Shown here one piece after another: positions 7,285 to 48,027 of a stretch of DNA of 64,000 bases. How positions within the stretch are numbered: the first letter of the stretch is position 1; the number at the start of each line of letters is the position of its first letter. The DNA is from Chryseolinea sp. H1M3-3. Its GTDB lineage: Bacteria; Bacteroidota; Bacteroidia; Cytophagales; Cyclobacteriaceae. Under the pieces are notes generated by a model that worked only from the letters and a program-made list of their open reading frames with translations, was not told the DNA's origin and made no database searches. The stretch spans positions 620,001-684,000 of the forward strand of contig NZ_JARKMY010000018.1 in assembly GCF_029360725.1 (NCBI RefSeq). The letters run 5' to 3'. The translations under genes and the position numbers were made by a program.

Positions 7285-7485
7285 GGTTATTAAGAGAGTT
7301 TTGCATCTCTACTGGAAAAATAATGCCATGCAAAAAAGCCGCGAAAGCAATGTAAAATCGAGCTTTTATTTTATCAAAATTTCCAATTTGGGAATAAGTT
7401 TTATTTTTAAGCCACCGGCATTTCGCTCTTTCAGCCCCAGGCCTACCGCTAAAATCAATTGTAATTTCATAATCTTTGTGTGTAC

Positions 7486-8031
7486 ATGAACGATATAGCG
7501 CTTCGGGAATTAGCAAAGCGGATTAAGGCATCTGACCCAGTTGCCTTTGAAATGGTTTTCAATTTATTCCATGATACAATTTTTAAATTCCTGCTTTTTA
7601 AAACGAAAGATGCCGATACAGCAGAGGATATCTTGCAGGAAGTATTTTTCAAATTGTGGAACGCTCGTTTTACCCTGAATGAACATCAATCTCTTAAAAA
7701 TTATCTTTACACCATTGCCGATAATCAGGTGTTAAATCACCTCCGCCATTTAAAAGTTGTTCAAAGTCACCTGCAGCAAAAGCCCTCACGACTTTTCTCG
7801 GTCATCGACAACCCTCAGTTTATTTTGGAGGAAAAGGAATGGAAACTCAAATTAATGAATGCCATCGATAATTTACCTGAGAAAACACGGATCATATTTC
7901 TGATGAGTCGAATGGAAGATCTTACTTATATGGAAATAGCCGAACGCCTGTCGCTCAGCGTAAAAACCGTGGAGGGCCACATGGTAAAAGCTTTGAAACT
8001 TTTGCGGCAATCTGTTTCAGCGAAACTATAA
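7486..8031 (+). CDS. ECF sigma factor of the FecI type
   Basis: I chose the ATG at 7486 over the GTG two codons upstream. The roughly 181-residue protein has sigma region 2 (DPVAFEMVFNLFHDTIFKFL to YLYTIADNQVLNHLRH) and region 4 (LPEKTRIIFLMSRMEDLTYMEIAERL, then a helix-turn-helix LSVKTVEGHMVKALKLL). It binds RNA polymerase and directs it to one or a few promoters. The next two genes encode a FecR-type anti-sigma and a TonB receptor, so this is a cell-surface signalling cassette: ligand binding at the receptor is relayed through FecR to free the sigma factor. Confidence 0.9.
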   Translation: MNDIALRELAKRIKASDPVAFEMVFNLFHDTIFKFLLFKTKDADTAEDILQEVFFKLWNARFTLNEHQSLKNYLYTIADNQVLNHLRHLKVVQSHLQQKPSRLFSVIDNPQFILEEKEWKLKLMNAIDNLPEKTRIIFLMSRMEDLTYMEIAERLSLSVKTVEGHMVKALKLLRQSVSAKL

Positions 8032-8082: not shown

Positions 8083-9036
8083 ATGGAAACAGATCAACCC
8101 GAATTAGAAAGCTTGTTTTTGAAAAAGCTAAGCGGTACGCTCTCTCCGAATGAAAGCATTTATCTGGAAGATAGGCTAAAATCCAATTCACAGGATAGAA
8201 GCGATTTTGAAGAAACACGAAGCGTGTGGAAAACTTCTGATCAATTGCAACTACCCCGAGGACTGTCTCGAAACGTGCGTTGGAATAACCTGCAACAAAA
8301 AATACAATCCACCTCAACGCATTCTGTTCCTACATTTAAGAGTTTACTAAAATATGCAGCTTCGCTTACCGTCATTGGTGCACTGATTGGAATCTATTTA
8401 TTCACTTCTTCGGATGAACTCATTGAAATCACAACAAAATATGCCGAAACGAAAACGGTAACACTTCCGGACCAATCTACGATTATCCTGAATGCTGGTA
8501 CCTCCATATCGTATGACGAAGATTCGTGGGATGATGAGCGCCTGATAAACCTTGAAGGCGAAGCTTTTTTTAACGTTAAGAAAAACGGGGCGCCTTTTAC
8601 GGTAGCTTCCAACAATACAACGGTTAGGGTTTTAGGCACCTCATTCAATGTTCGCTCCCGCAACGAAATTACAGATGTCATTTGTCTCACAGGAAAAGTA
8701 AAGTTCAGTATACTGGATCGTCAGTCGGTGGTACTCACAAAAGGAAATGGAGCCACGGCTACCGGAAATAATTTGTCACCCGCTTATGCGATCGCTTTAG
8801 TTGATACGATGCCTTGGATAACGGGAGCGCTGTACTTTAACGATACACCGTTAAAAGAAGTATTTGCCGAAATGGAACGGTACTTTAACGTTCGGATTAT
8901 CATAAAGAAAGATGTCGGAACATTGACGTTTACCGGCAAGTTTAGCAAGCCACAATTGAATGTTGTAGCAGAAACCGTTTGTTTGTCAGCAGGTCTACGG
9001 TATACGATAAATAAGGAATCCATCACGATCGAATAA
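8083..9036 (+). CDS. FecR-family anti-sigma factor
   Basis: The 317-residue protein has a cytoplasmic N-terminal part (about 1-85) that should hold the sigma factor, one membrane helix (about 87-104, ASLTVIGALIGIYLF) and a periplasmic FecR domain with signatures TVTLPDQSTIILNAGTSISY and FNVKKNGAPFTVASNNTTVRVLGTSFNV. The C-terminal part (ITGALYFNDTPLKEVFAEMERYFNV) is the STN-like FecR C-terminal module that meets the receptor's N-terminal signalling domain. It lies 51 bases after the sigma gene and 59 before the receptor gene. It relays receptor occupancy to the sigma factor. Confidence 0.9.
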   Translation: METDQPELESLFLKKLSGTLSPNESIYLEDRLKSNSQDRSDFEETRSVWKTSDQLQLPRGLSRNVRWNNLQQKIQSTSTHSVPTFKSLLKYAASLTVIGALIGIYLFTSSDELIEITTKYAETKTVTLPDQSTIILNAGTSISYDEDSWDDERLINLEGEAFFNVKKNGAPFTVASNNTTVRVLGTSFNVRSRNEITDVICLTGKVKFSILDRQSVVLTKGNGATATGNNLSPAYAIALVDTMPWITGALYFNDTPLKEVFAEMERYFNVRIIIKKDVGTLTFTGKFSKPQLNVVAETVCLSAGLRYTINKESITIE

Positions 9037-9095: not shown

Positions 9096-11654
9096 ATGAG
9101 GAAATTTTTGTTCGTTACTACGACATTGCTTTTTATCGTTTCGATTATCTATGGACAGACACAAAAGGTTTTTATAAAGGGCGATTTTTATAATCGGCCA
9201 CTTTTGGATTTTATACATGAAGTAGAAAAAAATCACGGTATTCAATTCCATTATGTAAATGATGTTGTTGATGGCATTCTTTTAACAGGCGTTATTAAAT
9301 TCAATACTCCCCTTCTTAAGGCGTTGGAAATACTACTTAAAGACAAACCAGTGTCCTTCGCATCCTATCAGGAAGGCCAAATTATTCTATTTGCGAATGA
9401 GAAGAAGGCTATTAAATCAGAAGAATTATTTTACAAATTGTCCGGGCAAATAACAGACAAATCAACGGGTCAGCCGTTGCCTTATGTAACTGTTCACATA
9501 CCAGGCGCAGAGAAAGGGACGATTTCAAATGAAAATGGTGAATTTGAAATAAAACCACTTTCCGCAGGCCAGCACCTCATTCATTTCAGTTATATCGGGT
9601 ACGCCGCTGTTGCAAAAAAAATAAACCTGACTAACGACATTAGCATATCCATAGCGTTAGAGGAGAATTCTTTGGAATTGCCAGAACTCATTATCACACC
9701 TTCTGCCTTTGAAATCACTACTGTTGAAACACCCCTTACGTTGGCAAAGGAAGAAATATTGCATTCTCCAAACATGAGCAAAGACATTTATCGAACGCTT
9801 AAAACGCTCCCCGGCATAGCAAACAACGACTACTCCGCCAAAGCAAGGATCCGTGGAGGGCATAGTGATGAAACTGGCGTGTATCTGGATCATTTCCTGA
9901 TTAATGATCCATTCCATTTGGAAGAAGTGGATGGAAGTTTCAGCATCTTCAATACCGATTATGTTAATGAACTTTCCGTGCTCACCGGTGGATTTTCCGC
10001 CAATTACACTGATCGTCTGTCAGGTATCCTCGATGTAAAAACTTCCGATCAACTTGAAGCCGACCGCTATCAGGCTTCCGTGGATCTGATGAATATCAGT
10101 GGACTGGTTCAAAAGCGAATTAGCGATAAAGTAAATATTTTCGTAACAGCCAGAAGAGGTTATTTAGATTTTTTACTCCGCGAAATGAATACCGATGACA
10201 CCGACGCAATCCTGCCAAGGTTCTCTGACGTCTGGGCAAAAGTTGCGTACAATGCTGATCCAAAGCATTCAATAACATTCAATTTTCTGGCTGGACGAGA
10301 CAACTTTCGTGTAAAAGATATCGACGATTTTTCAGCCCGCCTTGATCTACAAAGTATCCGGAATAATATTAACGGTTGGGCTAATTGGAAATGGTTTCCG
10401 TCAAAACGTTTTAGCGCTATCACGACGATCGGTTATCAATCACTGGATAAAGATGCGCGCTTTTTGTTTCCGGAAAATATCAGTCAACATAACATTGATC
10501 AAAACAATTCACGAACTTTTACATTGACAAACACCAACTATTGGAAAATATCTAATAAGTCAAACCTTGAGACGGGCATAGAGTTAAAAACGTTCAATTC
10601 TCATTACCGGTACGTGGAAGAACGTTATGACGTATTTAATTCTATCCCTGACAATATTATAATTCACAACCTTAATATAAATCGTGATATTTCAGGATTT
10701 ACGAACTCATTTTATACACAATACAATTGGACGAGCCGCCAAGGTTTAATTGCTCAACTTGGTCTTCGCGCATCCGTTCAAAGTTTTTCTCCTTCAATTA
10801 AATGGGCGCCCCGACTCGCCTTGAGCTATTCCATCTCTCCATCCTTTACAGCTAAGGCAGCATGGGGCGTCTACTATCAGCCTGACTTATATTTTAAACT
10901 CAGAACTTCGTTAAGCCAGGAAACACCGTACCGCAAAAATAGCGAGAGTATTCATTACACGGCTTCGTTAATCTATTCAAAAAGTAAAACAGATATCATG
11001 GTAAACGTGTATTATAAAAATTATAATCACCTATTCGATGATTATCGTTACGAATTCTTCAATCGGATGGGCGGCGTTAACATCCTGGATATTCCATTCA
11101 ACACAAGCTCAGGATTTGCAAAAGGTTTTGAAGTGATGATGCGGCAGGCCTATGGTAAACGTAGTATGTTAAGCGTATCATACACATACGCGGAAAGTAA
11201 GATCCGTAATGCTTCTGGCAATGAAACCTACAGGGAATTTGATCAACCTCATACCATCATTATTAATAATGCTTTCAGGTTACCAAAAAATTGGAACATT
11301 AGTCTGTTGTGGACCTATCACACAGGCTATCCATATACACCCACGCAGCCCGGGTTTGTCAAGCAACGACCAAATGAAGAAGGGATAGTGCTTTTTTATG
11401 AAGTTGGAGATAAGAATAGTAAACGCTTGCCTGAATTTCACACGTTAGACCTGCGTATGGAAAAGACGTGGCATTTCAGAAAAAATGCTTTAATGATATA
11501 TCTGAATGTGGTCAATTTTTACAATCGTGAAAACCTGAGAAGCTATTGGTGGTTTCCATTCTATTATAAAAACGGTTCCATCGGATTCGACCATGAAACC
11601 CAATCTAACATTCCCTTTTTCGTTTCGCCGGGCGTAAGTTTTACGTTGTACTGA
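9096..11654 (+). CDS. TonB-dependent transducer receptor with STN domain
   Basis: The 852-residue outer-membrane protein has a signal peptide (1-20), an STN signalling domain (about 25-100, including LLDFIHEVEKNHGIQFHYV), a carboxypeptidase-regulatory-like domain (about 112-200, LSGQITDKSTGQPLPYVTV), a plug (about 215-330, with LKTLPGIANNDYSAKARIRGG) and a 22-strand-type beta barrel ending in an aromatic residue (SFTLY). The STN domain marks it as a receptor that signals through the FecR just upstream. Its ligand is unknown. It does not have the usual RagA/SusC partner lipoprotein next to it. The next gene, 167 bases on, is the haem/copper-type lipoprotein. Confidence 0.9.
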   Translation: MRKFLFVTTTLLFIVSIIYGQTQKVFIKGDFYNRPLLDFIHEVEKNHGIQFHYVNDVVDGILLTGVIKFNTPLLKALEILLKDKPVSFASYQEGQIILFANEKKAIKSEELFYKLSGQITDKSTGQPLPYVTVHIPGAEKGTISNENGEFEIKPLSAGQHLIHFSYIGYAAVAKKINLTNDISISIALEENSLELPELIITPSAFEITTVETPLTLAKEEILHSPNMSKDIYRTLKTLPGIANNDYSAKARIRGGHSDETGVYLDHFLINDPFHLEEVDGSFSIFNTDYVNELSVLTGGFSANYTDRLSGILDVKTSDQLEADRYQASVDLMNISGLVQKRISDKVNIFVTARRGYLDFLLREMNTDDTDAILPRFSDVWAKVAYNADPKHSITFNFLAGRDNFRVKDIDDFSARLDLQSIRNNINGWANWKWFPSKRFSAITTIGYQSLDKDARFLFPENISQHNIDQNNSRTFTLTNTNYWKISNKSNLETGIELKTFNSHYRYVEERYDVFNSIPDNIIIHNLNINRDISGFTNSFYTQYNWTSRQGLIAQLGLRASVQSFSPSIKWAPRLALSYSISPSFTAKAAWGVYYQPDLYFKLRTSLSQETPYRKNSESIHYTASLIYSKSKTDIMVNVYYKNYNHLFDDYRYEFFNRMGGVNILDIPFNTSSGFAKGFEVMMRQAYGKRSMLSVSYTYAESKIRNASGNETYREFDQPHTIIINNAFRLPKNWNISLLWTYHTGYPYTPTQPGFVKQRPNEEGIVLFYEVGDKNSKRLPEFHTLDLRMEKTWHFRKNALMIYLNVVNFYNRENLRSYWWFPFYYKNGSIGFDHETQSNIPFFVSPGVSFTLY

Positions 11655-11821: not shown

Positions 11822-13171
11822 ATGAAACTACCGTTTTTGATACTGGCTATTGCACTGACTTTAGTAATTGTCACCTCCCGTTGCAGTGAGCCACCGGTAG
11901 TTGTAAAATCAAACGAAAGTTTTGATTTGATACAGCAGAAAATCCTAAATATTTCATGCGCGCTCAGTGGATGTCATGCTTCCGAAAATGACGTTGCTTT
12001 TGCGCAGCACAAATTATTATTAAAGGAAGGCGCGGCGTATGACAATCTTGTGAATGCAGATCCACAGAATGAGCAAGCACGAATCGATGGATTAAAACGC
12101 GTACTTCCTGGTAACGCAGATGGGAGCCTGTTGGTACACAAACTTCATTGTAATAATGGCCATCATTCGAGTGATTATGGAAACCAAATGCCTTTGGGAA
12201 TGAATCCCCTTTCAGAAGGGCAAATTGAATTCATTACAAAATGGATTGAGCAAGGTGCAATTGAGACCGGGATTATTGAAGCCGACACTAGTTTATTGAG
12301 TGATACCTCCCCAGCATGTGAAGACGAATTTATTCCCATGGCGGCGCCGCCAGCTGGAGAAGGCTATCAAATTAAAGTTGAACCTTTTAACGTTGCACCT
12401 AATTTTGAGCGTGAAATTTTTGTTTATAAAGAAGTTGGAAATGAATCGGAAATATTTGTGAAAAGTATTGCGTTGACAATGCGCAAAAACAGTCACCATT
12501 TTTTGGTGAATTCTTTTTCTGATGAAATACCTTCCAATCAAATCCCTGAAATAAATACGATTCGTGATTTGCGTGACGCCAATAATAATTACATCATGTC
12601 GACAGTCGCCCAGATGGAATATCAGATTCCAACTGTTGCCAGTCAAACACCGGCGTTACAATATAATTTTCCTCCTGGTGTAGCATTGAAAATGCCACCA
12701 CGCCACAAGTTGGATGTCAATCTCCATTATGTCAACAAAACCTCTACAAGTTTTCAGGGTGAATGCTACATAAACCTTTTTACTATGTCGGCGGGTCAGG
12801 TTGTTTATGAAGCCCAATCGATTTTTTTAAGCAACGATGACATTTTTCTGCCACCAAATCAAAAAACAATTGCGAATAAAACTTTCTCCGTTACTCAAAC
12901 GATGAAAATATTCATGCTCACCTCCCATACCCATAGGCTAGGCGAAAGGTTTGAAATCCAAATTGTCGGCGGCCTGAGAAACGGTGAAATCATTTATAAC
13001 AGTTCGAACTGGCATCATCCAGAAGTGAAAACGTTTGATCCGCCGCTCGAACTCGTCCAAGGACAGTCGTTGAAAATGATGGTGACCTACGACAATACCA
13101 CTAATAAGTCCGTCAAGTTTGGTTTAACCAGTGAAGATGAGATGGCCATTATCTACGGGTATTATTACTGA
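11822..13171 (+). CDS. Envelope protein with CX4CH motif and PHM-type dicopper monooxygenase fold
   Basis: The 449-residue protein has an N-terminal export segment; C21 could be a lipid-attachment site, although SRC is a weak lipobox. Residues 35-150 resemble a planctomycete-type cytochrome c module with CALSGCH at 46-52, a CX4CH variant of the haem motif. Residues 180-449 resemble the two lobes of peptidylglycine alpha-hydroxylating and dopamine beta-monooxygenases. All six copper-ligand positions can be placed: HH at 225-226 and H302 (in NLHYVN) for the first copper, HTH at 369-371 and M441 (in SEDEM) for the second. These enzymes use copper and a reductant to hydroxylate C-H bonds. An attached haem could supply electrons. 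The substrate is unknown. Confidence 0.7.
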   Translation: MKLPFLILAIALTLVIVTSRCSEPPVVVKSNESFDLIQQKILNISCALSGCHASENDVAFAQHKLLLKEGAAYDNLVNADPQNEQARIDGLKRVLPGNADGSLLVHKLHCNNGHHSSDYGNQMPLGMNPLSEGQIEFITKWIEQGAIETGIIEADTSLLSDTSPACEDEFIPMAAPPAGEGYQIKVEPFNVAPNFEREIFVYKEVGNESEIFVKSIALTMRKNSHHFLVNSFSDEIPSNQIPEINTIRDLRDANNNYIMSTVAQMEYQIPTVASQTPALQYNFPPGVALKMPPRHKLDVNLHYVNKTSTSFQGECYINLFTMSAGQVVYEAQSIFLSNDDIFLPPNQKTIANKTFSVTQTMKIFMLTSHTHRLGERFEIQIVGGLRNGEIIYNSSNWHHPEVKTFDPPLELVQGQSLKMMVTYDNTTNKSVKFGLTSEDEMAIIYGYYY

Positions 13172-19492: not shown

Positions 19493-20833
19493 TTAAACCA
19501 CCGGCATCTCCCATCCATTGTGGTAAGCAGGCTTGATGAATTTGTTGGCTTCTGCATCGTTGCCAAAGTTTCCTTGCATAGCGTCCCAATAAACTTTCTT
19601 TCCGGTTCTGTATGCGATGTTCCCCATCTGTGCATTGATAGCTGCTACACTACCTGAACGTATGGGTGTGTTTAAAAGTGATTGATCATTTTTCTTGACC
19701 GCTGCCACAAAGTTTTGCGTATGCAAGTCGAGGTAATCGATTTCTTTTGGTTTAACAAACGCTTCGATGGGATCCATTTTTTGATCACCCCACATGGAAT
19801 ATCCCTCAGCTTTCCGCTCCGTTAGAACCTCATAGCCACCACGGTCGACCACAAGCGTCCCGTTGTTGCCGATAAAAGCGATGCCCTCTCTTCTTTTATA
19901 AGGACCATTATCGATACCGGTCGCGTGTTCCCACAACATGTTGAAATCTTTATATTGAAACACGGTCTGCAAAGTGTCAGGTGTCTCAGAAGCATCATCA
20001 GGATAAGCCAGCTTTCCCCCGGTAGCCATAACAGAAATCGGCGCGTCCGCTTGCATGGCGTAAAGTGCGATATCAATTTCATGAACGCCCCAATCAGTCA
20101 TCAACCCACCAGCATAATCCCAAAACCATCTGAAGTTAAAGTGAAAACGGTTCGCATTAAAATTTCTTTTGGGCGCGGGCCCCAACCAGAAATTATAGTC
20201 TACACCAGCCGGAACAGCGGTATCAGGCACCACGGGTACAGGCTTCATCCAACCTTGATAAGCCCATACTTTAACCAAACGGATTTTACCCAGCACGCCC
20301 GAACGTACAATCTCTATCGCTTTTTTATAATGCGGACCACTCCTTTGCCATTGGCCGGCTTGCACAATTTTACCCGTCTTTTGTTGTGCTGCAACCATTA
20401 AGTTACATTCTGCTATGGTGTTGGCAACGGGCTTCTCAACGTACACGTGTTTACCGGCTTTGACCGCATCAACCATGATTTTGCAATGCCAATGATCAGG
20501 CGTTCCAATGATCACAGCGTCAATCTCTTTGTTATTAAGCAGTTCCCTGTAGTCTGAATAGGTCTTTGGAATGTTTTTTCTCAGGGACGAATAATCAGAG
20601 GTCCTCTTTTTGATCACGTTAGAATCAACGTCACAAATTCCCAACAAGTCAACGTCCTTCATCTTTAAAAATGAATTGGTATTCGACCAACCCATTCCAT
20701 TGCACCCGATGACACCAATGTTAAGTTTGTCATTAGCAGAAACTATTCCAGGTGTGGCTATAATTTCAGATCCCAAAAACATACCTCCGGCCAATGCAGC
20801 ACCGGTTCCTTTGATAAAATTTCTACGTTTCAT
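19493..20833 (-). CDS. Tat-exported Gfo/Idh/MocA oxidoreductase
   Basis: I start the protein at the ATG at 20833 (MKRRNFIKGTGAALAGG), which gives a twin-arginine signal; the open frame continues a few codons upstream only from a TTG. About 446 residues. The NAD-binding fold has IGVIGCNGMGW, and the catalytic lysine motif is VEKPVAN. The C-terminal domain includes FWLGPAPKRNFNANRFHFNFRWFWDYAGG, typical of secreted members in Bacteroidota that act on glycans or inositols. It is exported folded with its cofactor. A second paralogue at 26.2 kb shares the WLGPAP/WTGPAP region. Substrate unknown. Confidence 0.88.
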   Translation of the reverse strand: MKRRNFIKGTGAALAGGMFLGSEIIATPGIVSANDKLNIGVIGCNGMGWSNTNSFLKMKDVDLLGICDVDSNVIKKRTSDYSSLRKNIPKTYSDYRELLNNKEIDAVIIGTPDHWHCKIMVDAVKAGKHVYVEKPVANTIAECNLMVAAQQKTGKIVQAGQWQRSGPHYKKAIEIVRSGVLGKIRLVKVWAYQGWMKPVPVVPDTAVPAGVDYNFWLGPAPKRNFNANRFHFNFRWFWDYAGGLMTDWGVHEIDIALYAMQADAPISVMATGGKLAYPDDASETPDTLQTVFQYKDFNMLWEHATGIDNGPYKRREGIAFIGNNGTLVVDRGGYEVLTERKAEGYSMWGDQKMDPIEAFVKPKEIDYLDLHTQNFVAAVKKNDQSLLNTPIRSGSVAAINAQMGNIAYRTGKKVYWDAMQGNFGNDAEANKFIKPAYHNGWEMPVV

Positions 20834-20888
20834 GCAAGTCAAAATTTAAAGTTGTCCCTCATCCACGTTTCGGCTTTGCTAACTATTT

Positions 20889-21098
20889 TTATCCTAACAA
20901 TGTTAATTTAACCTTTTCATACGGCATATCCACTTCCAAATAAACGGGCGTATCATTGATGCTCTGATAATTCAACTCAACAATGCAGCGCAAACTGCTT
21001 TGGGGGTCTGCATATACTCTGCCAATGCTGGCAATATTTACCAACTCAGTCTTCTCTTCAGATTCATCCGATACCTTTAACTCAATAAACTTTACCAT
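20889..21098 (-). CDS. Small soluble protein of unknown function
   Basis: I prefer the ATG at 21098 (MVKFIELKVS) because AAAGGA sits 5-10 bases before it; the frame is open for seven more codons. The product has 69 residues with alternating strands: KFIELKV, TELVNIASIGRVYAD, RCIVELNYQ, PVYLEVDMPYEKVKLTLL. It looks like a small all-beta protein, perhaps of the flagellar FlbD-like or 'YlzI-like' surface type, but I cannot name a family. It precedes the Gfo/Idh gene in the same direction with a 55-base gap. Confidence 0.55.
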   Translation of the reverse strand: MVKFIELKVSDESEEKTELVNIASIGRVYADPQSSLRCIVELNYQSINDTPVYLEVDMPYEKVKLTLLG

Positions 21099-21382
21099 AG
21101 TCCTTTCTATAAATTTCAATGCTAAAGTTACAGACCTTTACTTAGAAAACACACGGTGCACATAACAATAAATCAACTAACCGTGCGTGTTCCTGTAGCC
21201 AATCCAGCCTTATCCCTTTTGTGTAAATCGGATTTCATCTTAAATATAATAGAAGTAGTATTGTATTAAGACGTTCACAATATTAAAGACATACTATAAA
21301 CGTAAGACACATTCGGTCTTTCAAAGAATTACAACCGGACCCTGACACCGGCAACTGCAATGGCGGCTAAATACTTTATCTC

Positions 21383-22498
21383 ATGAAACACTATAAAAAC
21401 ATTCTGCTTGGGTCTATCCTACTCATGGCGATAACCCTCCACGCACAAACTAAACCAACAACCGAGGAGCTTCCTGTACGTGGATTTTGTATCGCTTCGC
21501 CACGTCCGGCTGACGTAGATGCGTTCGTCAAATTTATTCGCGAAGAACTGGCTCCTAGGAAAGTAAACACCCTGATACTCCGCGTGGATTTCAATTATCA
21601 ATATGAAAGCCACCCGGAATTACGAGACTCCATCGCACTGTCAAAAAATGATGTTAAAAAGATGGTGGACATTTGTAAGCGTAACAATATTCGAATTATT
21701 CCGCAGATAAATTTATTGGGCCATCAATCGTGGGCAAACACTACGTATAACCTCCTGCGTGTATACCCACAGTTTGATGAAACGCCCCATGTAAAAATGC
21801 CTGAAAAATATGTTTGGCCAAACGCAGATGGATTGTATTGCCGCAGCTATTGTCCACTGCATCCTGATGTCCACAAAATTGTTTTTGAAATGGTAGATGA
21901 AATTTGTGACGTGTTTGAAACGGACGCTTTTCATGCGGGAATGGATGAAGTATTTTACATCGGCGACGATAAATGCCCGCGGTGTGGAGGGCGTGACAAA
22001 GCTGAATTGTTTGCCGGGGAAGTATCGCGGATACGCAATCATCTTGCACAAAAAAACCGGATGTTGTGGATTTGGGGCGACCGCTTATTGGATGGCAAAG
22101 CTACCGGTCTGGGTATGTGGGAAGCCAGTATGAACAATACGCATCGTGCCATCGATATGATTCCGAAAGACGTCATGATTTGTGATTGGCATTATGAACG
22201 TCCGGATAAAACAGCAGTGTACTTTGCCATGAAGGGTTTTAAAGTAGTGACGTGTCCCTGGCGAAACCCTTCGATTGCCGTACTGCAAGCGGAAGATATG
22301 GTTAAGTTCAGAAAAGATTCCACTCCAGCCATGAAAGAAAATTTTCAGGGGATGGTTCAAACTGAATGGTCGAGTGCGGCCAGCTTTATGGATGGATTTT
22401 ACAATAAAAAGAAGGACCCCGAAGGTGGTAATAATACTTCCTGGAATTCCTTCATTGCGCTGTTCCAGAAACTGAAAGAACTGAATGCCGTAAAATAA
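21383..22498 (+). CDS. GH20-like exported glycoside hydrolase
   Basis: The 371-residue protein has a signal peptide (1-21, ending TLHAQ). It is a single TIM-barrel domain. HAGMDEVFYIGDD at about 184-196 matches the H-x-G-x-D-E motif of family 20 hexosaminidases, where D188 orients the substrate acetamido group and E189 is the acid. Other landmarks are IRIIPQINLLGHQSW and WIWGDRLLD. Two close cysteine pairs (CRSYC, CPRC) may bind metal or form disulfides. It lacks the extra N-terminal domain of larger GH20 enzymes. It would remove N-acetylhexosamine, or a similar sugar, from glycans in the periplasm. A strong terminator follows. Confidence 0.75.
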   Translation: MKHYKNILLGSILLMAITLHAQTKPTTEELPVRGFCIASPRPADVDAFVKFIREELAPRKVNTLILRVDFNYQYESHPELRDSIALSKNDVKKMVDICKRNNIRIIPQINLLGHQSWANTTYNLLRVYPQFDETPHVKMPEKYVWPNADGLYCRSYCPLHPDVHKIVFEMVDEICDVFETDAFHAGMDEVFYIGDDKCPRCGGRDKAELFAGEVSRIRNHLAQKNRMLWIWGDRLLDGKATGLGMWEASMNNTHRAIDMIPKDVMICDWHYERPDKTAVYFAMKGFKVVTCPWRNPSIAVLQAEDMVKFRKDSTPAMKENFQGMVQTEWSSAASFMDGFYNKKKDPEGGNNTSWNSFIALFQKLKELNAVK

Positions 22499-22510
22499 TT
22501 TAGCCGATGA

Positions 22511-22543
22511 AAGCCAGCAATTTTTTGCTGGCTTCTTTTTTTT
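22511..22543 (+). terminator. Intrinsic terminator after the GH20-like gene
   Basis: AAGCCAGCAA pairs perfectly with TTGCTGGCTT across a TTTT loop and is followed by a run of T's. It starts 12 bases after the stop codon. Confidence 0.92.
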
Positions 22544-22699
22544 ACACTCTGCGACTTGTGGTTTTAAATCTACGGAGGAATAATATTCCACGATTTTCAT
22601 CCAAGCAATACTTGCATTTTCAAATCTATTCTCACATTTGACTTCTGGCATTTTATTTCTGCACGTGCTTCCTGATTACGCAACAATTTTCGGAAACCA

Positions 22700-23875
22700 A
22701 TGAAAAGAAATTTAAAATCCTCTACCCTGAACATGCACATCGCCAGTGCATGTTCTGTTTTGTTTATCTGCTTATGCCTGGTGTCTTGTGACGAGTGGTT
22801 TGATGATGATGACGATGGCTTAAATGATTTTAACGGTCAAGTTTATGCAGATCACCTTGACACACCCTGGGAACTAGAGTTTGCGCCCGATGGCCGGCTT
22901 TTTTTTACACAAAGACCGGGCGTGGTGAGTGTCATTGAAAACGGAAAAACAAACGTATGGCTGAAATTAGATTCCGTCGTAGCTGAGATTGGTGAGTCTG
23001 GTCTTCTCGGAGTAACGCTTCATCCTGATTTCGCACAAAATGGTTATGTGTATGTAGGATATACCTATGCTGCAAGTAAATCACCATTAAAGCTCGTTAA
23101 CAAACTTGTCCGGTATAAAGAAGATCCCGCAACAAAAGCACCAATGTTCGACATGGTGGTGATGGATGGTATTGCAGGAAACTACGTTCACAACAGCGGG
23201 CCGTTGGAATTTGGACCCGACGGCAAATTATATTGGGCGATAGGAGAAATCTTTTCACCTGAACTGGCGCAGGATATGAATGTTTTGAACGGGAAAATTT
23301 TGAGAATGAATGACAATGGTAGTATTCCGTCCGATAATCCATTTCCAGCATCGTATATTTATTCTCTTGGCCACAGAAATCCACAAGGGTTGGCTTTCCA
23401 CCCTGAAAACGGCGCGCTTTGGTCCACCGAGCATGGGCCTTCTGAAGAACAAGGATGCTGCATGGACGAGATTAATCTGATCAAACCAACTGCAAACTAC
23501 GGTTGGCCTATCATACGCGGCAGTCAGACACAAGCGGGACTCGAAACGCCGGTCTACCACAGCGGCGACACAACGACATGGGCACCCACAGGTGGAATAT
23601 TTGTCACGCAAGGTGACTGGAAAGGATCATTCATTTTTACCGGCCTCCGTGGGCAAGCGCTCTATCGCGCAACGATTGATCCAAACGATGCTACCAAAAT
23701 ACAAAAGGTTGACCGGTATCTCTACCAGAAATTTGGAAGGCTTCGGAATGTCGTTGAAGGTGCTGACGGAAAATTATATATCGCCGTGAGCAATCAGGAT
23801 GGCAGAGGAGATCCAAAGACACAAGATGACCGGATCATTATACTTACACAAAAGCAAATAGAAAAAAATAATTAA
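22700..23875 (+). CDS. Exported PQQ-dependent sugar dehydrogenase-like protein (GSDH)
   Basis: The 391-residue protein has an N-terminal lipoprotein signal (LCLVSCDEW) and an acidic spacer of Asp residues, then a six-bladed propeller of the glucose/sorbosone dehydrogenase family. Landmarks are LDTPWELEFAPDGRLFFTQRPG, GLLGVTLHPDF, LGHRNPQGLAFHP, WSTEHGP and NYGWPIIRG. Family members oxidise aldoses at C1 with PQQ and calcium in the periplasm. Whether this one binds PQQ cannot be told from sequence alone. The gene has its own terminator. Confidence 0.85.
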   Translation: MKRNLKSSTLNMHIASACSVLFICLCLVSCDEWFDDDDDGLNDFNGQVYADHLDTPWELEFAPDGRLFFTQRPGVVSVIENGKTNVWLKLDSVVAEIGESGLLGVTLHPDFAQNGYVYVGYTYAASKSPLKLVNKLVRYKEDPATKAPMFDMVVMDGIAGNYVHNSGPLEFGPDGKLYWAIGEIFSPELAQDMNVLNGKILRMNDNGSIPSDNPFPASYIYSLGHRNPQGLAFHPENGALWSTEHGPSEEQGCCMDEINLIKPTANYGWPIIRGSQTQAGLETPVYHSGDTTTWAPTGGIFVTQGDWKGSFIFTGLRGQALYRATIDPNDATKIQKVDRYLYQKFGRLRNVVEGADGKLYIAVSNQDGRGDPKTQDDRIIILTQKQIEKNN

Positions 23876-23895
23876 GCAACTTTTAGTTGAACAGC

Positions 23896-23929
23896 ACCAG
23901 CGTGAGCTTTGGCCACGCTGGCTTTTTTT
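23896..23929 (+). terminator. Intrinsic terminator after the GSDH gene
   Basis: CCAGCGTG pairs with CACGCTGG across a 9-base loop and is followed by seven T's. It overlaps the last bases of the converging minus-strand gene. Confidence 0.9.
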
Positions 23930-26075
23930 ATTTCTCCATTACAATACCCTCAAATTTGTCCAGGCGCTCGACAGTAAATTTTATAACGCCATTCTCCCAA
24001 CGGAATTCAATTGGCGCATTGTTAATCATTCCCCGGATTTTTGACGGCCTGGTATCCGAACGAATGCTAAACTGAAGGTTGTAAACGGGAATTGGCTCAA
24101 AGTATGTATTGCCACTGAAGCCGGTCAGGTTAACAAGGTGTAATATCTTTCCCTCGGGTTCCTTTCGTGAAATGTTTTCTGGAATATTTCTGACATAGTC
24201 TTGAAGAACAACCTCTACCCTGACAGGCGCATTTGTTTCTATCAATTGGTTCACCTCCGGATAGAGGTAATCAATTACATCCAGCAGGATATTTTTATGT
24301 TGTTCATATCCATGAATAAAGTACAGCTTGCCCAGATTGATGGGCAAGATTGCTGCTTTGCTCTTAGCATGATTTTTTATCGCAAGTGCCTTATAGCCCG
24401 ATGGCTCATGTCCACCGATAATTTCTGGCGGGCCAGGTCTGCCCGCCGTGTAAATGGGAAGCAATGAAGTATCAGCGGCAGAAAAATCATATAGTCCTAA
24501 GTTAAACTTCCAGAATAATAAAGTCTGCTTGTCAAATCGTTTAAAAAACTGCTTCTCCTCTGGTTTTAAATAATATCCATTTCCTACATGATCCTTGTTA
24601 ACGATTTTTGCTCCAAACAATTTTAGCAAAGCCTCGGGGTGGCGATGAAAAGATTTGTTGGTCGCAATCAGGTTCACCCCCTTTTCACAAACACGGTTTA
24701 TAACTTCCACTGCGTCGTCGCTCAAATTGATAATTTCCGGAAGAATGATGAGTTTATACTGTCCGAGTTTATTTTCCAGGCTTTCAATTTTTCCATCCTC
24801 AACAATATCGTATTGTATGTGCGATTCCTTTAACATCAGCTGAACACCTCTGTACTCCTGAGCAGCCTCACCCGCTGGCCAGGCGCCAGGTGCAATAACA
24901 ACAACTTGAGCCGGTGAAGTATACTTTCCATAATAAGGCTCAAATTTTTTATGGTGATCATATACCAGTTTGAATGCTTCAAAGTTGCGTTCGTCTTCAT
25001 AGTTTTGAAAATCACCCATCAGACTCATGTCCAGCCCTGAGCCGTTGGCGATATTCTCATACAACCGAATTACGGTCTCTTCCGGCTCTATGGCGTTATA
25101 GCGCGATTGAAAAGAGATTTGCTGAATACTGGCATTGCTGATGATGTGATCAGGATACGAATGCCTTGCATTGGTAACATTATCCGATGCCATGTACGGC
25201 CAATACGGTAGGCTATTGGTTTGTGTTTCATGGCGAATGATGTCGATGTAACGGTCTCCATAGGTGCAAATGGCTACTTGTTTATTTTTGGATTTCACCA
25301 GCGCGTTTAGGCGTTTCATCAGATCGTCTACGGAATGTTTCTTAAACGCTTCATACTTTCGGAAAACAGGATCATCCACATTTTCTTCTTTGGGTAGTGT
25401 CATGCCATTGCTGAATTCCGCAAAACGTTTTTTGCTGTATTCATTTTGATCGATTCCATGATATTCACCTACATAAGAATTACGGGTTTGATATCCAGGC
25501 ATGTTAATAAATATGCCGTCGATAGGATATAGATTCATTACCTCCTCAACAATCTGGAACAGGACCTCTTGCTCGTAGGGTGCATCAATCGACACCACAT
25601 ACATGTCATCATTGATAATGTGTTCTCCTTTTGGAGAAATATAAAACCAATCGGGATGTTTCTGAAAGATACTTTCATGTGCGCGGCTAAAATCAAAACG
25701 GGTTATAACCTTTATGCCGTTCTCATGACATTTCCTGATTACATCTCCTAACATGTCTTTCTTCATGTATGGATTTGTATATTGGTTTTCCAATTTCGTG
25801 GGATAAAAAGCCATAATACCACCCGCATTGATAATAAGTGTATTGGCAGAAAAACGTACGAGATCCTGGACCAAAGAATCCGCATTTAATCCGCCTTCGT
25901 ACGCAGGCAAATTGGTCTGCATCACGCGAAGGTTATTTCGTTTCCACCACGCCAGTGAATCGGGCCAGTTTGATATTAAAGATGTTGAAGGTGGATTTTC
26001 TTGTTCCGGAGAACCGCAATTGATGCATGCAGCAGAATAAAAAAGTAGATATAAATAAAAAATCAGTTTACGCAT
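23928..26075 (-). CDS. Glycoside hydrolase-like lipoprotein with glutaminase-fold middle domain
   Basis: I start at the ATG at 26075, which gives a lipoprotein signal (MRKLIFYLYLL, lipobox INC); the open frame continues 45 codons upstream without coding character. About 715 residues. The first 330 form a TIM-barrel like the hypothetical GHL6/GH10-type hydrolases (NNLRVMQTNLPAYEGG, IDGIFINMPGYQ). The middle (about 390-520) resembles the beta-galactosidase trimerisation domain (VVVIAPGAWPAGEAAQEYRGV, LIILPEIINLSDDAVEVI). The tail is a beta-sandwich. The call is by fold; substrate unknown. It diverges from the Gfo/Idh gene at 26.2 kb. Confidence 0.7.
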   Translation of the reverse strand: MRKLIFYLYLLFYSAACINCGSPEQENPPSTSLISNWPDSLAWWKRNNLRVMQTNLPAYEGGLNADSLVQDLVRFSANTLIINAGGIMAFYPTKLENQYTNPYMKKDMLGDVIRKCHENGIKVITRFDFSRAHESIFQKHPDWFYISPKGEHIINDDMYVVSIDAPYEQEVLFQIVEEVMNLYPIDGIFINMPGYQTRNSYVGEYHGIDQNEYSKKRFAEFSNGMTLPKEENVDDPVFRKYEAFKKHSVDDLMKRLNALVKSKNKQVAICTYGDRYIDIIRHETQTNSLPYWPYMASDNVTNARHSYPDHIISNASIQQISFQSRYNAIEPEETVIRLYENIANGSGLDMSLMGDFQNYEDERNFEAFKLVYDHHKKFEPYYGKYTSPAQVVVIAPGAWPAGEAAQEYRGVQLMLKESHIQYDIVEDGKIESLENKLGQYKLIILPEIINLSDDAVEVINRVCEKGVNLIATNKSFHRHPEALLKLFGAKIVNKDHVGNGYYLKPEEKQFFKRFDKQTLLFWKFNLGLYDFSAADTSLLPIYTAGRPGPPEIIGGHEPSGYKALAIKNHAKSKAAILPINLGKLYFIHGYEQHKNILLDVIDYLYPEVNQLIETNAPVRVEVVLQDYVRNIPENISRKEPEGKILHLVNLTGFSGNTYFEPIPVYNLQFSIRSDTRPSKIRGMINNAPIEFRWENGVIKFTVERLDKFEGIVMEK

Positions 26076-26210
26076 GTCTCTTATTTTCGGGAATATCAAT
26101 TTAAAAAAGTAAAATGCGTAAAATTTTTGATACACGGTATTCCTTAAATAACTGATGATCGTAATTTTACGCTTCAACACGCCGTACTTCAACACTACAA
26201 CATCTTTCAC

Positions 26211-27578
26211 ATGGATAATTTTAATATTAACAGAAGACGCTTCCTGCAGGGAGCAACAGCCTCGCTGGCACTCTCAGCTTTCGGAGCGCAGGGCATGGAC
26301 ATTATCAATCCACAAAAACCTCTTCGCGTCGGATTAATTGGAACGGGATGGTATGGGAAGAGTGATTTATTCCGGCTTATTCAAGTCGCCCCCGTAGATG
26401 TAGTTGCGCTTTGCGACGTTGATAAAAATATGCTGAAGCAGGCAGCCTCGATGGTAAGCGAACGGCAGAAATCAAAGAAGACACCGCGTACCTATGGAGA
26501 CTACCGGAAAATGCTTTCAGAAAATGAAATGGATATTGTATTGATTGGGACTCCGGATCATTGGCACGCTCTACAAGCTATTGATGCGATAAAAGCAGGG
26601 GCTAATGTCTACTTGCAAAAACCCATCAGCGTTGATGTTATTGAAGGCGAAGCCATTCTTGCTGCCGCACGCAAGTATAATAAAGTGGTGCAGATCGGTA
26701 CGCAGCGAAGAAGTACACCGCATCTCATCGAAGCGAAAAAAAATATTGTCGATGCCGGTCTGTTAGGAAAAGTATCGCACGTTGAAATGTGTTGTTATTT
26801 TCCTATGCGTAACAACACCAATCCACCTGTTGAACCAGTTCCTGATTTCCTTGACTATGAAATGTGGACTGGCCCTGCACCGTTGCGTCCCTACGATGGA
26901 ATTCCTCACATCCGGTGGTGGCGTGCATTCATGGAATATGGTAATGGTATCGTGGGCGATATGTGTGTTCACATGCTCGACGCCGCGCGTTGGATGCTCG
27001 ATCTCGGATGGCCTAAGAAAATTACTTCTACGGGAGGTATCTATGTCCAAAGAAATACAAAGTCAAATATTTCAGATACACAGACCGCTGTATTTGAATA
27101 CGAGGGGTTAAATTGTGTATGGCAGCACCGCTCATGGGGTACGCCTGCTGATCCCGAATATCCATGGTCCTATAAACTGTATGGCGACAAAGGCACGCTT
27201 TCGGCCAGCACGATGAAGTACGACTTTGTGCCGGTGGGCGACGGTCAGAAGATTCACAAGGATGTTGTTTATGAAAAAGAAAAATATCCTGAAGACCTGA
27301 AAGAGGAAAGAATTGAATTGAATGCAGCGCCGGCTACGCGCCTTCACATGCTGGATCTGCTCGCAGCTATGGAAAAGGGTAGCCATCCCGTGGCAGATAT
27401 TGAACAAGGACACATTTCAACAGCAAGTTGCATATTGGCAAATATGTCTATGCAAACTGGACGTCCGATGGTGTACGATCATCAGAAGAGAGAAGTCGTT
27501 AATGATAAGGAAGCAACGGCGCTTCTGCAAAGAAAATACCGTGCACCATGGATACATCCGGACCCGCAAAAGGTTTAA
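26211..27578 (+). CDS. Tat-exported Gfo/Idh/MocA oxidoreductase
   Basis: The 455-residue protein has a twin-arginine signal (NINRRRFLQGATASLALS), a nucleotide-binding fold with VGLIGTGWYGK, and LQKPISVD at the position of the usual EKP catalytic lysine. Downstream are WTGPAPLRPYDGIPHIRWWRAF and GDMCVHMLDAARW, typical of the secreted family. It is followed after 59 bases by a sugar phosphate isomerase-like gene with its own twin-arginine signal, so the two probably act on the same periplasmic sugar: the oxidoreductase forms a keto derivative and the isomerase-like enzyme reshapes it. Confidence 0.88.
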   Translation: MDNFNINRRRFLQGATASLALSAFGAQGMDIINPQKPLRVGLIGTGWYGKSDLFRLIQVAPVDVVALCDVDKNMLKQAASMVSERQKSKKTPRTYGDYRKMLSENEMDIVLIGTPDHWHALQAIDAIKAGANVYLQKPISVDVIEGEAILAAARKYNKVVQIGTQRRSTPHLIEAKKNIVDAGLLGKVSHVEMCCYFPMRNNTNPPVEPVPDFLDYEMWTGPAPLRPYDGIPHIRWWRAFMEYGNGIVGDMCVHMLDAARWMLDLGWPKKITSTGGIYVQRNTKSNISDTQTAVFEYEGLNCVWQHRSWGTPADPEYPWSYKLYGDKGTLSASTMKYDFVPVGDGQKIHKDVVYEKEKYPEDLKEERIELNAAPATRLHMLDLLAAMEKGSHPVADIEQGHISTASCILANMSMQTGRPMVYDHQKREVVNDKEATALLQRKYRAPWIHPDPQKV

Positions 27579-27637
27579 CGCTGTAGCATTTCATATTTGA
27601 ATATTCGATCTAAAAAAATTTTATTAATCCAATTATC

Positions 27638-28564
27638 ATGAACAGAAGAGACGCGATCAAAGCAGCATCGGTAACAACGGGGCTCGGTCTTTTAGGAACC
27701 GTCGGCTTTGCCAAAGAAAAGAAAAAGCAAGCAGACAAATTCAAATTTTCCCTGAATACAAGCACCATCAGCGGTCAGAAACTCGGTGTTCAAAAATACA
27801 TTGAGATTGCGGCTCGCGCAGGATACGATTGTATGGAGCTTTGGCTACCCGACTTGAAAGTGTACATGGATAACGGTGGCACACTGCCGGCATTAAAAAA
27901 ACTGATCGACGATAGTAAGGTACCAGTTGTTAACGCCATTGGCTTCGCCCCCTGGATGATTGACGATGAAGAAAAACGAAATGCAGGATTCAAACAGATG
28001 CGTCAGGAGATGGAAATCATGGCAGCGCTGGGTTGTCCGCGCATAGCGGCACCATCGGCAGGTATTGGCCCGACTGCACAATTGGATATGTTTATTGTCG
28101 GTGAAAGATTTGCCAAGCTGATTGAGCTAGGTAAAGAGACAGGTGTTACGCCGCAGCTTGAGTTCTGGGGTGCTTCAAGATTCCATCATATAGGGCAGGC
28201 GTTAATGGCGTCTGCGGTGGCAAATAATCCGGGGGCGAAAATTCTCGCTGACGTTTATCATTTATTCAGAGGGAACTCCGGGTTTGAAAGTCTTAAAATG
28301 ATCGACGGAAGCATGATCGAAATTTTCCACATGAATGATTATCCCGGATCAATTCCGCGTGAAAAACAAGAAGACAAAGATCGGATTTACCCTGGAGATG
28401 GTGTCGCACCTTTCAAACAAATTCTAACGGATCTGAAAAACATGAAAGGTCCGAAGGTTCTGTCACTTGAGCTTTTCAACCGCGAATATTGGGCACAAGA
28501 TCCATTACAAGTGGCAAAGACTGGTTTAGAAAAAATGAAGAAAGTGGTGCAGGGAATTGTTTAG
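27638..28564 (+). CDS. Tat-exported sugar phosphate isomerase/epimerase-like TIM barrel
   Basis: The 308-residue protein starts MNRRDAIKAASVTTGLGLLG, a short twin-arginine signal. The body is an AP-endonuclease-2/xylose-isomerase-type barrel. Likely metal ligands are in QLEFWGAS, LADVYHLFRG, IFHMNDYPGS and SLELFNREYW, the Glu/Asp/His/Glu positions of the family. Family members isomerise or epimerise sugars and keto-sugars such as 3-keto glucosides and inosose. It is paired with the Gfo/Idh gene just upstream, a common partnership in inositol and keto-glucoside breakdown. Confidence 0.85.
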   Translation: MNRRDAIKAASVTTGLGLLGTVGFAKEKKKQADKFKFSLNTSTISGQKLGVQKYIEIAARAGYDCMELWLPDLKVYMDNGGTLPALKKLIDDSKVPVVNAIGFAPWMIDDEEKRNAGFKQMRQEMEIMAALGCPRIAAPSAGIGPTAQLDMFIVGERFAKLIELGKETGVTPQLEFWGASRFHHIGQALMASAVANNPGAKILADVYHLFRGNSGFESLKMIDGSMIEIFHMNDYPGSIPREKQEDKDRIYPGDGVAPFKQILTDLKNMKGPKVLSLELFNREYWAQDPLQVAKTGLEKMKKVVQGIV

Positions 28565-44386: not shown

Positions 44387-47300
44387 CTATTTCATCGTAA
44401 TAGCATTTTGCTTCGACATCTTAGGATCAGCCTCCAACTTGATGTCTGAAAGAATGAATAGGGGTTGGCCTTCCGGTGCTTTGTCATTCTTGTAAATGAA
44501 ATACACGTCATGGAAACCTTCCGTAGCCGTAAGTCTGATGGCGGCATTGATGGGAACCGGGTTAGGTTGTTTTCCCTTTACCACGGCTATCGGTTTAGAT
44601 TGCCCGATCACAGGTCCATCAGGAGCATCTATCCGGACTTCAATTGAGCCACCTGCAGCATTCAATCTTTCTTCCGGTGCAAATACAGTGCAAGTAGCCT
44701 GAGAAACACCCGACATATCCAGTTGGTTAAATGCGATGTATGCATTGTTCCGCGATCCGATCATCCGCGGGTTTTGATTTCCGGCCTTTCGAACACCGTC
44801 TATTTTATCGGCCTTGCTTGCAGGAAAATTAGGGCTAGCCAACATCAATACCTTTTCTGTCGTTGCAGCTTGAATACCGTTCGCACCTTTATCGGTATAT
44901 GCAGCTCTCAAGATTAACACTCCTTTGTCGCTTACATCTTTGGCAAGCTGTGTCGTATAGCTTCCCCGTGGAGGAAAGGATTTCACTTCCTCTTTTTCGC
45001 CTAAGCTCAAAATATAATTAACAATCTCCGTTGCATCTTTTATAGCCAGCTGCGGATGTGCGGCCATCGCTGTCTCACCCCAAACGCCACTACCGCCGCC
45101 GATGATTTTTTTAGCGAGGTAATCAACTGCCTTCGGATCGTCTTTATATTTTTTAGCTACTTCCATATACATTGGACCTACCGACTTTCTATCTACACTA
45201 TGGCAAGCTTTACAATCACTGCCTTCCATCAGCTTTTTACCTGTGGCGAATTTGGCAAATGCGTCTGCACTTAAATGGCCCTGAGCAATTTCAATCTTAT
45301 CAAAACCTTCTTCGAGGTAATCGATGCGCACGGAAACCTGATCAGCAGCAATACTACCATCAGCCAGACTGCCGTCTTCTTTGTCGCTTACTTTTACTTC
45401 ATATTCAAATGCCTGATTGGGAAAGAAAAAAGTTTTGTTGCCTTTGGTAATTTCGAAGGTAAGTTCGGCTGGTTCGTTACCCGCCAGGATTTCCATTTCA
45501 CTCACTGACTTCTCTCCTTTTGCATCGGTTACGCTGAGCGCAGCCTTATAAACTCCAGGCTGATCGAACGTATAGTCCGCGTTCGGGTCTTTGCCTGTTA
45601 ATAAAACCTTACCATCCTGCGCAGTAATTTTCCATTCATAGGTCATTGCATCGCGATCATAATCTTTTGTTCCGTTCGAATTCAGACTGACCGCCATTGG
45701 CACAGCACCTTTTGTTTTGTTTGCAGCCATCCTAATGAGCGGCTTGCGATTGTTACCGTTGTACTCAATGCGCACGAGTCTTGCATCATCATTCCCTGTA
45801 AACCAGCCAGTACCATATTCAAGCATGTACAAGTCACCATCTGCAGCGAACTCCATATCCATGGGGTTGCTGAATTTATGACTTGGCATAAACCGCTCCA
45901 TTGAAACGTAATTGCCTTCATCATCCATGCTCACCGCCATGATCCAGCCACGCATCCACTCATAAATAAATAATTTCTTATCGTAATAATCCGGAAAGGC
46001 ACGTTTAGCGTTTTTAAAATCATTCACATAGTAAACCTGGCCGGCCATTGCCGTTCTTCCGCCTGTTCCAAGCAAAGGGAACTCAGGAGAAATATCGTAA
46101 GGATACCAGATAAAAGCTTTTTGTGCAGGAGGTAATTCAGTCAGCCCTGTGTTATTCGGAGAACTGTTAATGGGCTTCAAAGGGTCAAACGCAGGCCCTG
46201 TTTCACCTGTAGCAAAGTTACGTTGATGATAGGCCTTATTATCGCCAACGAAATATGGCCAACCGAAAAAGCCAGGTTTGCGCGCCTGGTTAATTTCATC
46301 GAACGCACGCGGTCCGCGATTAACGGAGTCACTAGCTGCATCTGGCCCAACATCACCCCAATATAAATAACCCGTATGCTTATCAACCGAAATGCGGTAT
46401 GGATTTCGGCCGCCCATGATGTAAATCTCCGGCCTCGTTTTTGGCGTTCCCTTAGGAAAAAGATTTCCCTCCGGAATGGTATACGACCCGTCTGGTTGGG
46501 GATGAATGCGCAAGATTTTACCTCTCAAATCGTTCGTGTTTGCCGATCCTTTTTGTGCATCCCATGGGCCTCTTCCTGGACGATTATCCATCGGCGCATA
46601 TCGCGTTGATCTCGGGCTCGTATTATCTCCGGTAGACAGAAATAAATTACCTTTTCCATCGAAGGCAATAGACCCACCCGTGTGGCAACACTGCTCGCGT
46701 TGAACTTCAACCTCCAGCAGAATTTTTTTCGATGATTCGATCAGAGAATCTCCTTTCAACTCATATCGCGTGAGAATATTCACCGGCTTCTCTCCTACCT
46801 GTGAATAGTACAGGTAAATCCAATTATTCTTTTCGTATTGAGGATCCAGCGCGACCCCGAGCAACCCATCCTCAGCTTCAGCCCTTCCGTTGTCTTTGAA
46901 TTTGTATTTCGTGCTGACAGGAATCTGTGCGATGGTTTTGGTTAGCTGCAGTTCCGGATCATAAATTTTTACTGCTCCTTTCCGCTCCACAAACAAAACA
47001 CGTTGCTTCGGAAGCAATGCCAACTCCACGGGTTCATCCAACTTCTCATCCAACACGATTTTTGTAAATCTATTTTCTTCGGGCACCCGTTTCGAACGTG
47101 CCAGTGAATAATTCAATTTAACGGGCTCATCACCACCCAACACATATTCCATACCGCCTGCCAGATGTCTTAAAAACAATGCCTCGTTGTATGTTTCATC
47201 CGTATGCCCCATAGCCGTGTAGAACGCTCTTCCGCCGTCATATTCATGATACCATGCCATTGGATGATTGTCGCCGTTAGTGCCGCCGGTATAGGTTTTC

Positions 47301-47878: not shown

Positions 47879-48027
47879 ACAGTTATAGGAAATAATTTGA
47901 TTACAATTTAATCCGGAAAAGATAGGAAAAATTGTCTGGGCCACTCGCTACAATTTGATAATCGGCAAATGGTAATAACTGCGATTCAAAAGGTCTTTTA
48001 TACGGACTACCCGCGGATCAATCAAAT

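Follow-up and report, generated by a model that had tools for sequence, protein, structure and literature searches.

A Bacteroidota lipoprotein joining a predicted c-type haem domain to a dicopper core of the PHM/DBH type

Can one bacterial chain hold both a dicopper monooxygenase core of the peptidylglycine alpha-hydroxylating monooxygenase (PHM) type and the haem that would reduce it, and what would such a protein oxidise? The question is raised by an intact reading frame in the window, that is, the whole 64,000-nucleotide stretch of Chryseolinea sp. H1M3-3 DNA that was analysed. A first-pass annotation, made from the letters alone, had proposed that the reading frame encodes a haem-linked hydroxylase of the cell envelope at a FecIR receptor locus. 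The nine residues on which that proposal was built (C46, C51, H52, H225, H226, H302, H369, H371, and M441) all stand at the named positions of the translated reading frame. Coordinates of the protein, its parts, and its upstream neighbours are collected in Table 1.

Table 1. Features of the PHM-type gene and of the genes upstream, in window positions
Feature	Position	Strand	Basis or remark
CDS, predicted lipoprotein of 449 aa: haem-c domain plus PHM-type dicopper monooxygenase core	11822..13171	+	intact ORF, Pfam, homologue conservation
Signal peptide and lipobox, residues 1-21	11822..11884	+	C21 invariant in 28 homologues, alignments
Haem-c domain, residues 33-152	11918..12277	+	TIGR03806, family-profile and Pfam matches
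CX4CH haem attachment motif, C46-ALSG-C51-H52	11957..11977	+	Cys, Cys, and His kept in all 35 homologues
M123 (MPLG), likely distal axial haem ligand	12188..12190	+	invariant in 28 homologues; aligned with FoxE MPLG
N-terminal (CuH) jelly-roll domain, residues 180-337	12359..12832	+	Foldseek and profile alignment to PHM, DBH
H225-H226, CuH ligands (PHM H107/H108; DBH H262/H263)	12494..12499	+	profile alignment, conservation
H302, CuH ligand (PHM H172; DBH H333)	12725..12727	+	profile alignment, conservation
C-terminal (CuM) domain, residues 338-449	12833..13168	+	PF03712 match
H369-T-H371, CuM ligands (PHM H242/H244; DBH H412/H414)	12926..12934	+	profile alignment, conservation
M441, CuM ligand (PHM M314; DBH M487)	13142..13144	+	profile alignment, conservation
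FecI-type sigma factor	7480-8031	+	neighbour, probably not part of the system
FecR	8083-9036	+	neighbour, probably not part of the system
TonB-dependent receptor	9096-11654	+	neighbour, probably not part of the system

Pfam, profile, and fold comparisons were used to place the copper core. The C-terminal domain matches PF03712 (Cu2_monoox_C) with an E value of 4e-10 and 39.8 bits against a cut-off of 23, and the host genome holds a single PF03712 gene. Of 35 family members, 27 match this model and 6 match PF01082. Searching PDB chains with the single protein (phmmer) gave nothing useful, and the family profile was needed to reach PHM and DBH: built from the 35 proteins, it matches DBH with an E value of 7e-13 and PHM with one of 8e-10. 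Its HH, HY, HxH, and EM elements fall in register with the six copper ligands of both enzymes, for which H107, H108, and H172 are reported as CuH ligands in PHM (PMC6123673) and H262, H263, H333, H412, H414, and M487 as copper ligands in DBH (PMC4846438). A full-length AF2 model based on 17 sequences has a mean pLDDT of 73, with values of ∼85 in the copper core and 50 to 65 in the haem part. When this model was compared with the PDB by Foldseek, ranks 1 to 31 were all rat PHM or human DBH (rat PHM 3mll, E = 3e-14, TM 0.68 by target length). From rank 32 onward the matches were double-jelly-roll capsid proteins, whose structural relation to the PHM fold is known (PMC8812541). The model and the Foldseek comparison give the two-jelly-roll fold of copper type II monooxygenases. 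The PHM-type dicopper core proposed at first pass is thus upheld by fold match, by ligands in profile register, and by ligand invariance. On profile, fold, and ligands we assign the protein to the PHM/DBH superfamily, in which it is neither PHM proper nor DBH.

At the other end of the chain, C21 is the predicted lipidated cysteine. The lipobox of the window protein, TSRC, has an atypical arginine at position -1, and its relatives have VSC or LGC. This cysteine supports the cell-envelope location that had been proposed. The best explanation of the predicted features is that the protein is an outer-membrane or periplasmic-side lipoprotein with a PHM/DBH fold. C21 had gone unmentioned in the first-pass annotation, as had M123 and the prevalence of CX2CH as the haem motif among relatives.

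The region between lipobox and copper core carries the putative haem domain. Among the 35 homologues the haem motif is CX2CH in 23, CX4CH in 11, and CX3CH in 1, and an MP dipeptide lies downstream of it in every one. The CX4CH members form one group beside CX2CH relatives in a maximum-likelihood tree (98/96 support), which indicates that the less common CX4CH motif arose once from CX2CH relatives. A spacing that changes with the three residues kept is, at the level of the alignment, the behaviour expected of a haem-attachment site. The TIGR03806 di-haem cytochrome model matches residues 31 to 144 weakly (E = 8e-5), the family profile matches hydrazine synthase alpha at E = 7e-5 and FoxE weakly, and some family members have weak Pfam matches to Haem_bd and Cytochrome_CBB3. 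TIGR03806, the C-terminal region of hydrazine synthase alpha, and FoxE share with the haem domain a CXnCH motif, then MP, and a W-I-x-x-GA tail; their similarity to it is weak, and in none of them is a PHM core joined to it. When residues 32 to 166 were modelled alone by AF2, the model was of low confidence (pLDDT ∼63) and found no match among solved structures. Two adjacent cytochrome-c assembly genes (PF01578) are present in the host genome, so covalent attachment of haem is possible. Taken together, the invariant CXnCH, the MP that follows it, and the weak to moderate sequence matches to cytochrome families sustain the proposal that the chain with the copper core also holds a c-type haem domain.

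The residues named above are also those that the family has kept. In 28 full-length close homologues, the lipobox cysteine, both haem cysteines, the haem histidine, M123, and the six copper ligands are all invariant. Invariance across the 35 wider homologues is limited to 13 columns (C46, C51, H52, W141, H225, H226, P284, H302, H369, H371, N425, E440, and M441), and 9 of these are the six copper ligands and the Cys, Cys, and His of the haem motif. With only four other columns equally conserved, the pattern is not one of chance.

A scan of genome contigs gave 16 full-length relatives at 43 to 47% identity, mostly from Spirosoma, with one recorded as Cellulophaga and one as Flectobacillus. Within the taxonomic family of the host, 23 of 149 genomes had some match and 12 had a roughly full-length relative; none was found in three sampled genomes of the same genus, and the gene is thus patchily distributed. 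PF03712 was detected in 29 of 297 sampled Bacteroidota genomes (∼10%) and in none of the 14 control genomes. At 28 of these 29 loci the reading frame that encodes the copper core has a CXnCH motif ahead of that core; the remaining one, L060, is truncated where its contig ends, and the motif filter used for choosing the reading frame excluded no locus. As judged from these reading frames, conservation of the haem/copper domain pair extends to roughly one in ten of the sampled Bacteroidota. Separately, a plasmid search returned an unannotated stretch of an actinobacterial record (Nonomuraea NZ_LT559118.1, 339202-340092) as a weak match of 23% identity covering the copper core only.

In one genome (G002) the two halves are separate. 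At its locus L078 (8335-9881), the haem domain and the PHM core are encoded by two adjacent lipoprotein genes; the haem-domain gene lies at 9330-9881 on the minus strand, and a signal peptide and lipobox are present in both proteins. The copper-core protein begins MRHITLLTLIGMLALGFQAC, and because this start includes a signal peptide and lipobox of its own, an error of sequencing within a single gene does not account for the split. Since the domains are fused in most genomes and adjacent in G002, the haem domain and the copper core are very likely to function together.

The family is not uniform in architecture. A second, deeply separated clade (L038, L040, L041, L042, L045, L056, L065, and L066) has a shorter haem domain with CXXCH and then MPPW. 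A T9SS C-terminal sorting domain is present in 6 of the 35 family members, which implies that some of them act outside the cell and that this second clade is probably secreted. In one member, L061:1447-3246, the PHM-haem protein has a redoxin/AhpC-TSA domain added at its N terminus.

Comparison with characterised systems shows where the window protein departs from them. Rat PHM (3mll, 1sdw, and 1phm) has the same two-domain fold with the six copper ligands in register, whereas the window protein is a predicted lipoprotein with a fused haem-c domain in place of the ascorbate supply, few cysteines in its core, and replacements at the residues that bind the peptide carboxylate. Human DBH (4zel), the best sequence-profile match, has the same copper ligands and likewise an N-terminal accessory domain, but this domain is a DOMON in DBH and a predicted haem-c domain in the window protein; no DOMON match was found in Pfam scans of the window protein or of family members. 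DBH also differs in its dimerisation domain and many disulfides (PMC4846438). A precedent for electron supply comes from bacterial copper LPMOs, which are reduced and activated by a c-type cytochrome domain (PMC8981238). The CjX183 cytochrome c domain of Cellvibrio Cbp2D is comparable to the arrangement proposed here in that its c-type haem supplies electrons to a copper monooxygenase, although the enzyme it reduces is a mononuclear LPMO, carried on another chain and unrelated in fold to the dicopper core (PMC8981238).

Family membership leads us to propose C-H hydroxylation, and the coupling of the domains together with the LPMO precedent leads us to propose the haem as electron donor. The protein is probably an envelope dicopper C-H hydroxylase in which CuH is reduced by the tethered haem c and the substrate is something other than a peptidylglycine. 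Its core would bind two type-2 coppers, CuH through H225, H226, and H302 and CuM through H369, H371, and M441. An external donor would give electrons singly to the N-terminal c-type haem, held by C46, C51, H52, and probably M123, and the haem would pass them to CuH in place of the ascorbate used by the animal enzymes. Dioxygen and substrate would then react at CuM, with hydroxylation of a C-H bond in a substrate that is exogenous or part of the envelope. The term "self-contained," applied to the hydroxylase at first pass, goes too far: the haem must itself be reduced from outside the protein. For the family as a whole, we see the chances as evenly divided that it forms a prokaryotic PHM/DBH branch across Bacteroidota, fed by haem c and not by ascorbate, and acts as a hydroxylase on an extracellular or envelope substrate unlike those of any characterised member.

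The main rival to haem as donor is electron flow in the reverse direction. The copper core would then oxidise its substrate and the haem would hand the electrons to the respiratory chain, making the protein a dehydrogenase or oxidase with a cytochrome exit, like the cytochrome-fused sugar dehydrogenases. Bacteroidota frequently fuse cytochrome c to extracytoplasmic dehydrogenases, and the window has an example on the minus strand at 44387-47944, where a 1,185-aa protein with ThuA, glucose/sorbosone dehydrogenase (GSDH), PKD, and cytochrome c domains represents another envelope oxidoreductase with a cytochrome c domain. The haem domain, moreover, resembles hydrazine synthase alpha and FoxE, neither of which is the reductase of an oxygenase. 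We nevertheless consider reverse flow unlikely, because all six ligands are invariant, including the CuM methionine typical of the O2-activating PHM and DBH, and because the known members with the PHM fold and ligands are monooxygenases that need electron input (PMC4846438).

The genes upstream suggest a different role, in which a PHM-type enzyme would belong to a FecIR-regulated uptake system and process the ligand of the TonB receptor. FecI, FecR, and the receptor do directly precede the gene on its strand, at a distance of 167 bases, and since the genome has ∼11 strong FecR loci, chance adjacency would be uncommon for any one gene. To that extent the FecIR receptor locus described at first pass is real; the arrangement, however, is not conserved, for a FecI-FecR-receptor set stands directly upstream in 0 of 31 related neighbourhoods. 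FecIR genes lie several genes away from the PHM-type gene at L073 and L076, and in the Spirosoma relatives the upstream positions are taken by an ApaG-domain gene and by a further small gene that is unrelated. FecIR control as a general feature of the family was rejected on these grounds, and an uptake role for the window protein itself is improbable. Elsewhere the neighbours are transporters, helicases, regulators, or alpha-2-macroglobulin, and across the 31 loci the analysis found no common partner and none that indicates a substrate or an electron source.

Such widely varying neighbourhoods would also suit a copper- and haem-binding envelope protein that serves in copper storage, sensing, or simple electron transfer and has no oxygenase role, as would the lack of a known activity among bacterial members in the literature found. 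We think this distinctly improbable: two PHM-type sites, together with E440 and N425, are strictly kept down to ∼17 to 20% identity, which catalysis fits better.

There remains the reaction that gives PHM its name. In PHM-substrate structures, R240, N316, and Y318 are the residues that hold the peptidyl-glycine carboxylate. The window protein has T367, I443, and Y445 at these positions, and the 35 homologues have T, F, W, A, S, or M at the first, I, L, F, or T at the second, and F, Y, or L at the third, with neither arginine nor asparagine ever found at the first two. That the protein is a true peptidylglycine alpha-hydroxylase, a bacterial peptide-amidating enzyme, is therefore very improbable despite the shared fold and copper ligands, and we rejected it, because the carboxylate-binding R240 and N316 are replaced in all 35 homologues and no lyase partner adjoins the gene in the neighbourhoods inspected. 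To judge from these positions, the substrate is probably not a glycine-extended peptide.

The preferred reading, a hydroxylase supplied by its own haem domain, bears on how this enzyme class is described. In a 2020 review, PHM and DBM appear in the eukaryote column only (PMC7435645, Table 3), and in a 2022 paper the PHM fold family is described as widespread in eukaryotes (PMC8812541). Our literature search, from whose coverage subscription journals were largely absent, found no study of a bacterial PHM or PF03712 protein. These bacteria probably have a haem-fed form of an enzyme whose descriptions otherwise come, as a rule, from eukaryotes. In animals, cores of the PHM/DBH type produce peptide hormones and noradrenaline. 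Ascorbate is the usual electron source of PHM and DBH, and transfer from CuH to CuM is still debated (PMC4846438). A bacterial PHM-type branch in which the haem-c partner is always present would reveal a further route by which dicopper sites can be reduced; the tethered haem would offer an optical handle on the electron delivery step, and the naturally split pair of G002 would let that delivery be studied with separate proteins.

Farther along the window, positions 19493-28564 hold a cluster of genes for GFO/IDH/MocA oxidoreductases, GH20, GSDH, GHL6, and a xylose-isomerase-like protein, and this region probably serves in sugar utilisation. Another GFO/IDH/MocA gene stands next to the PHM gene at L079.
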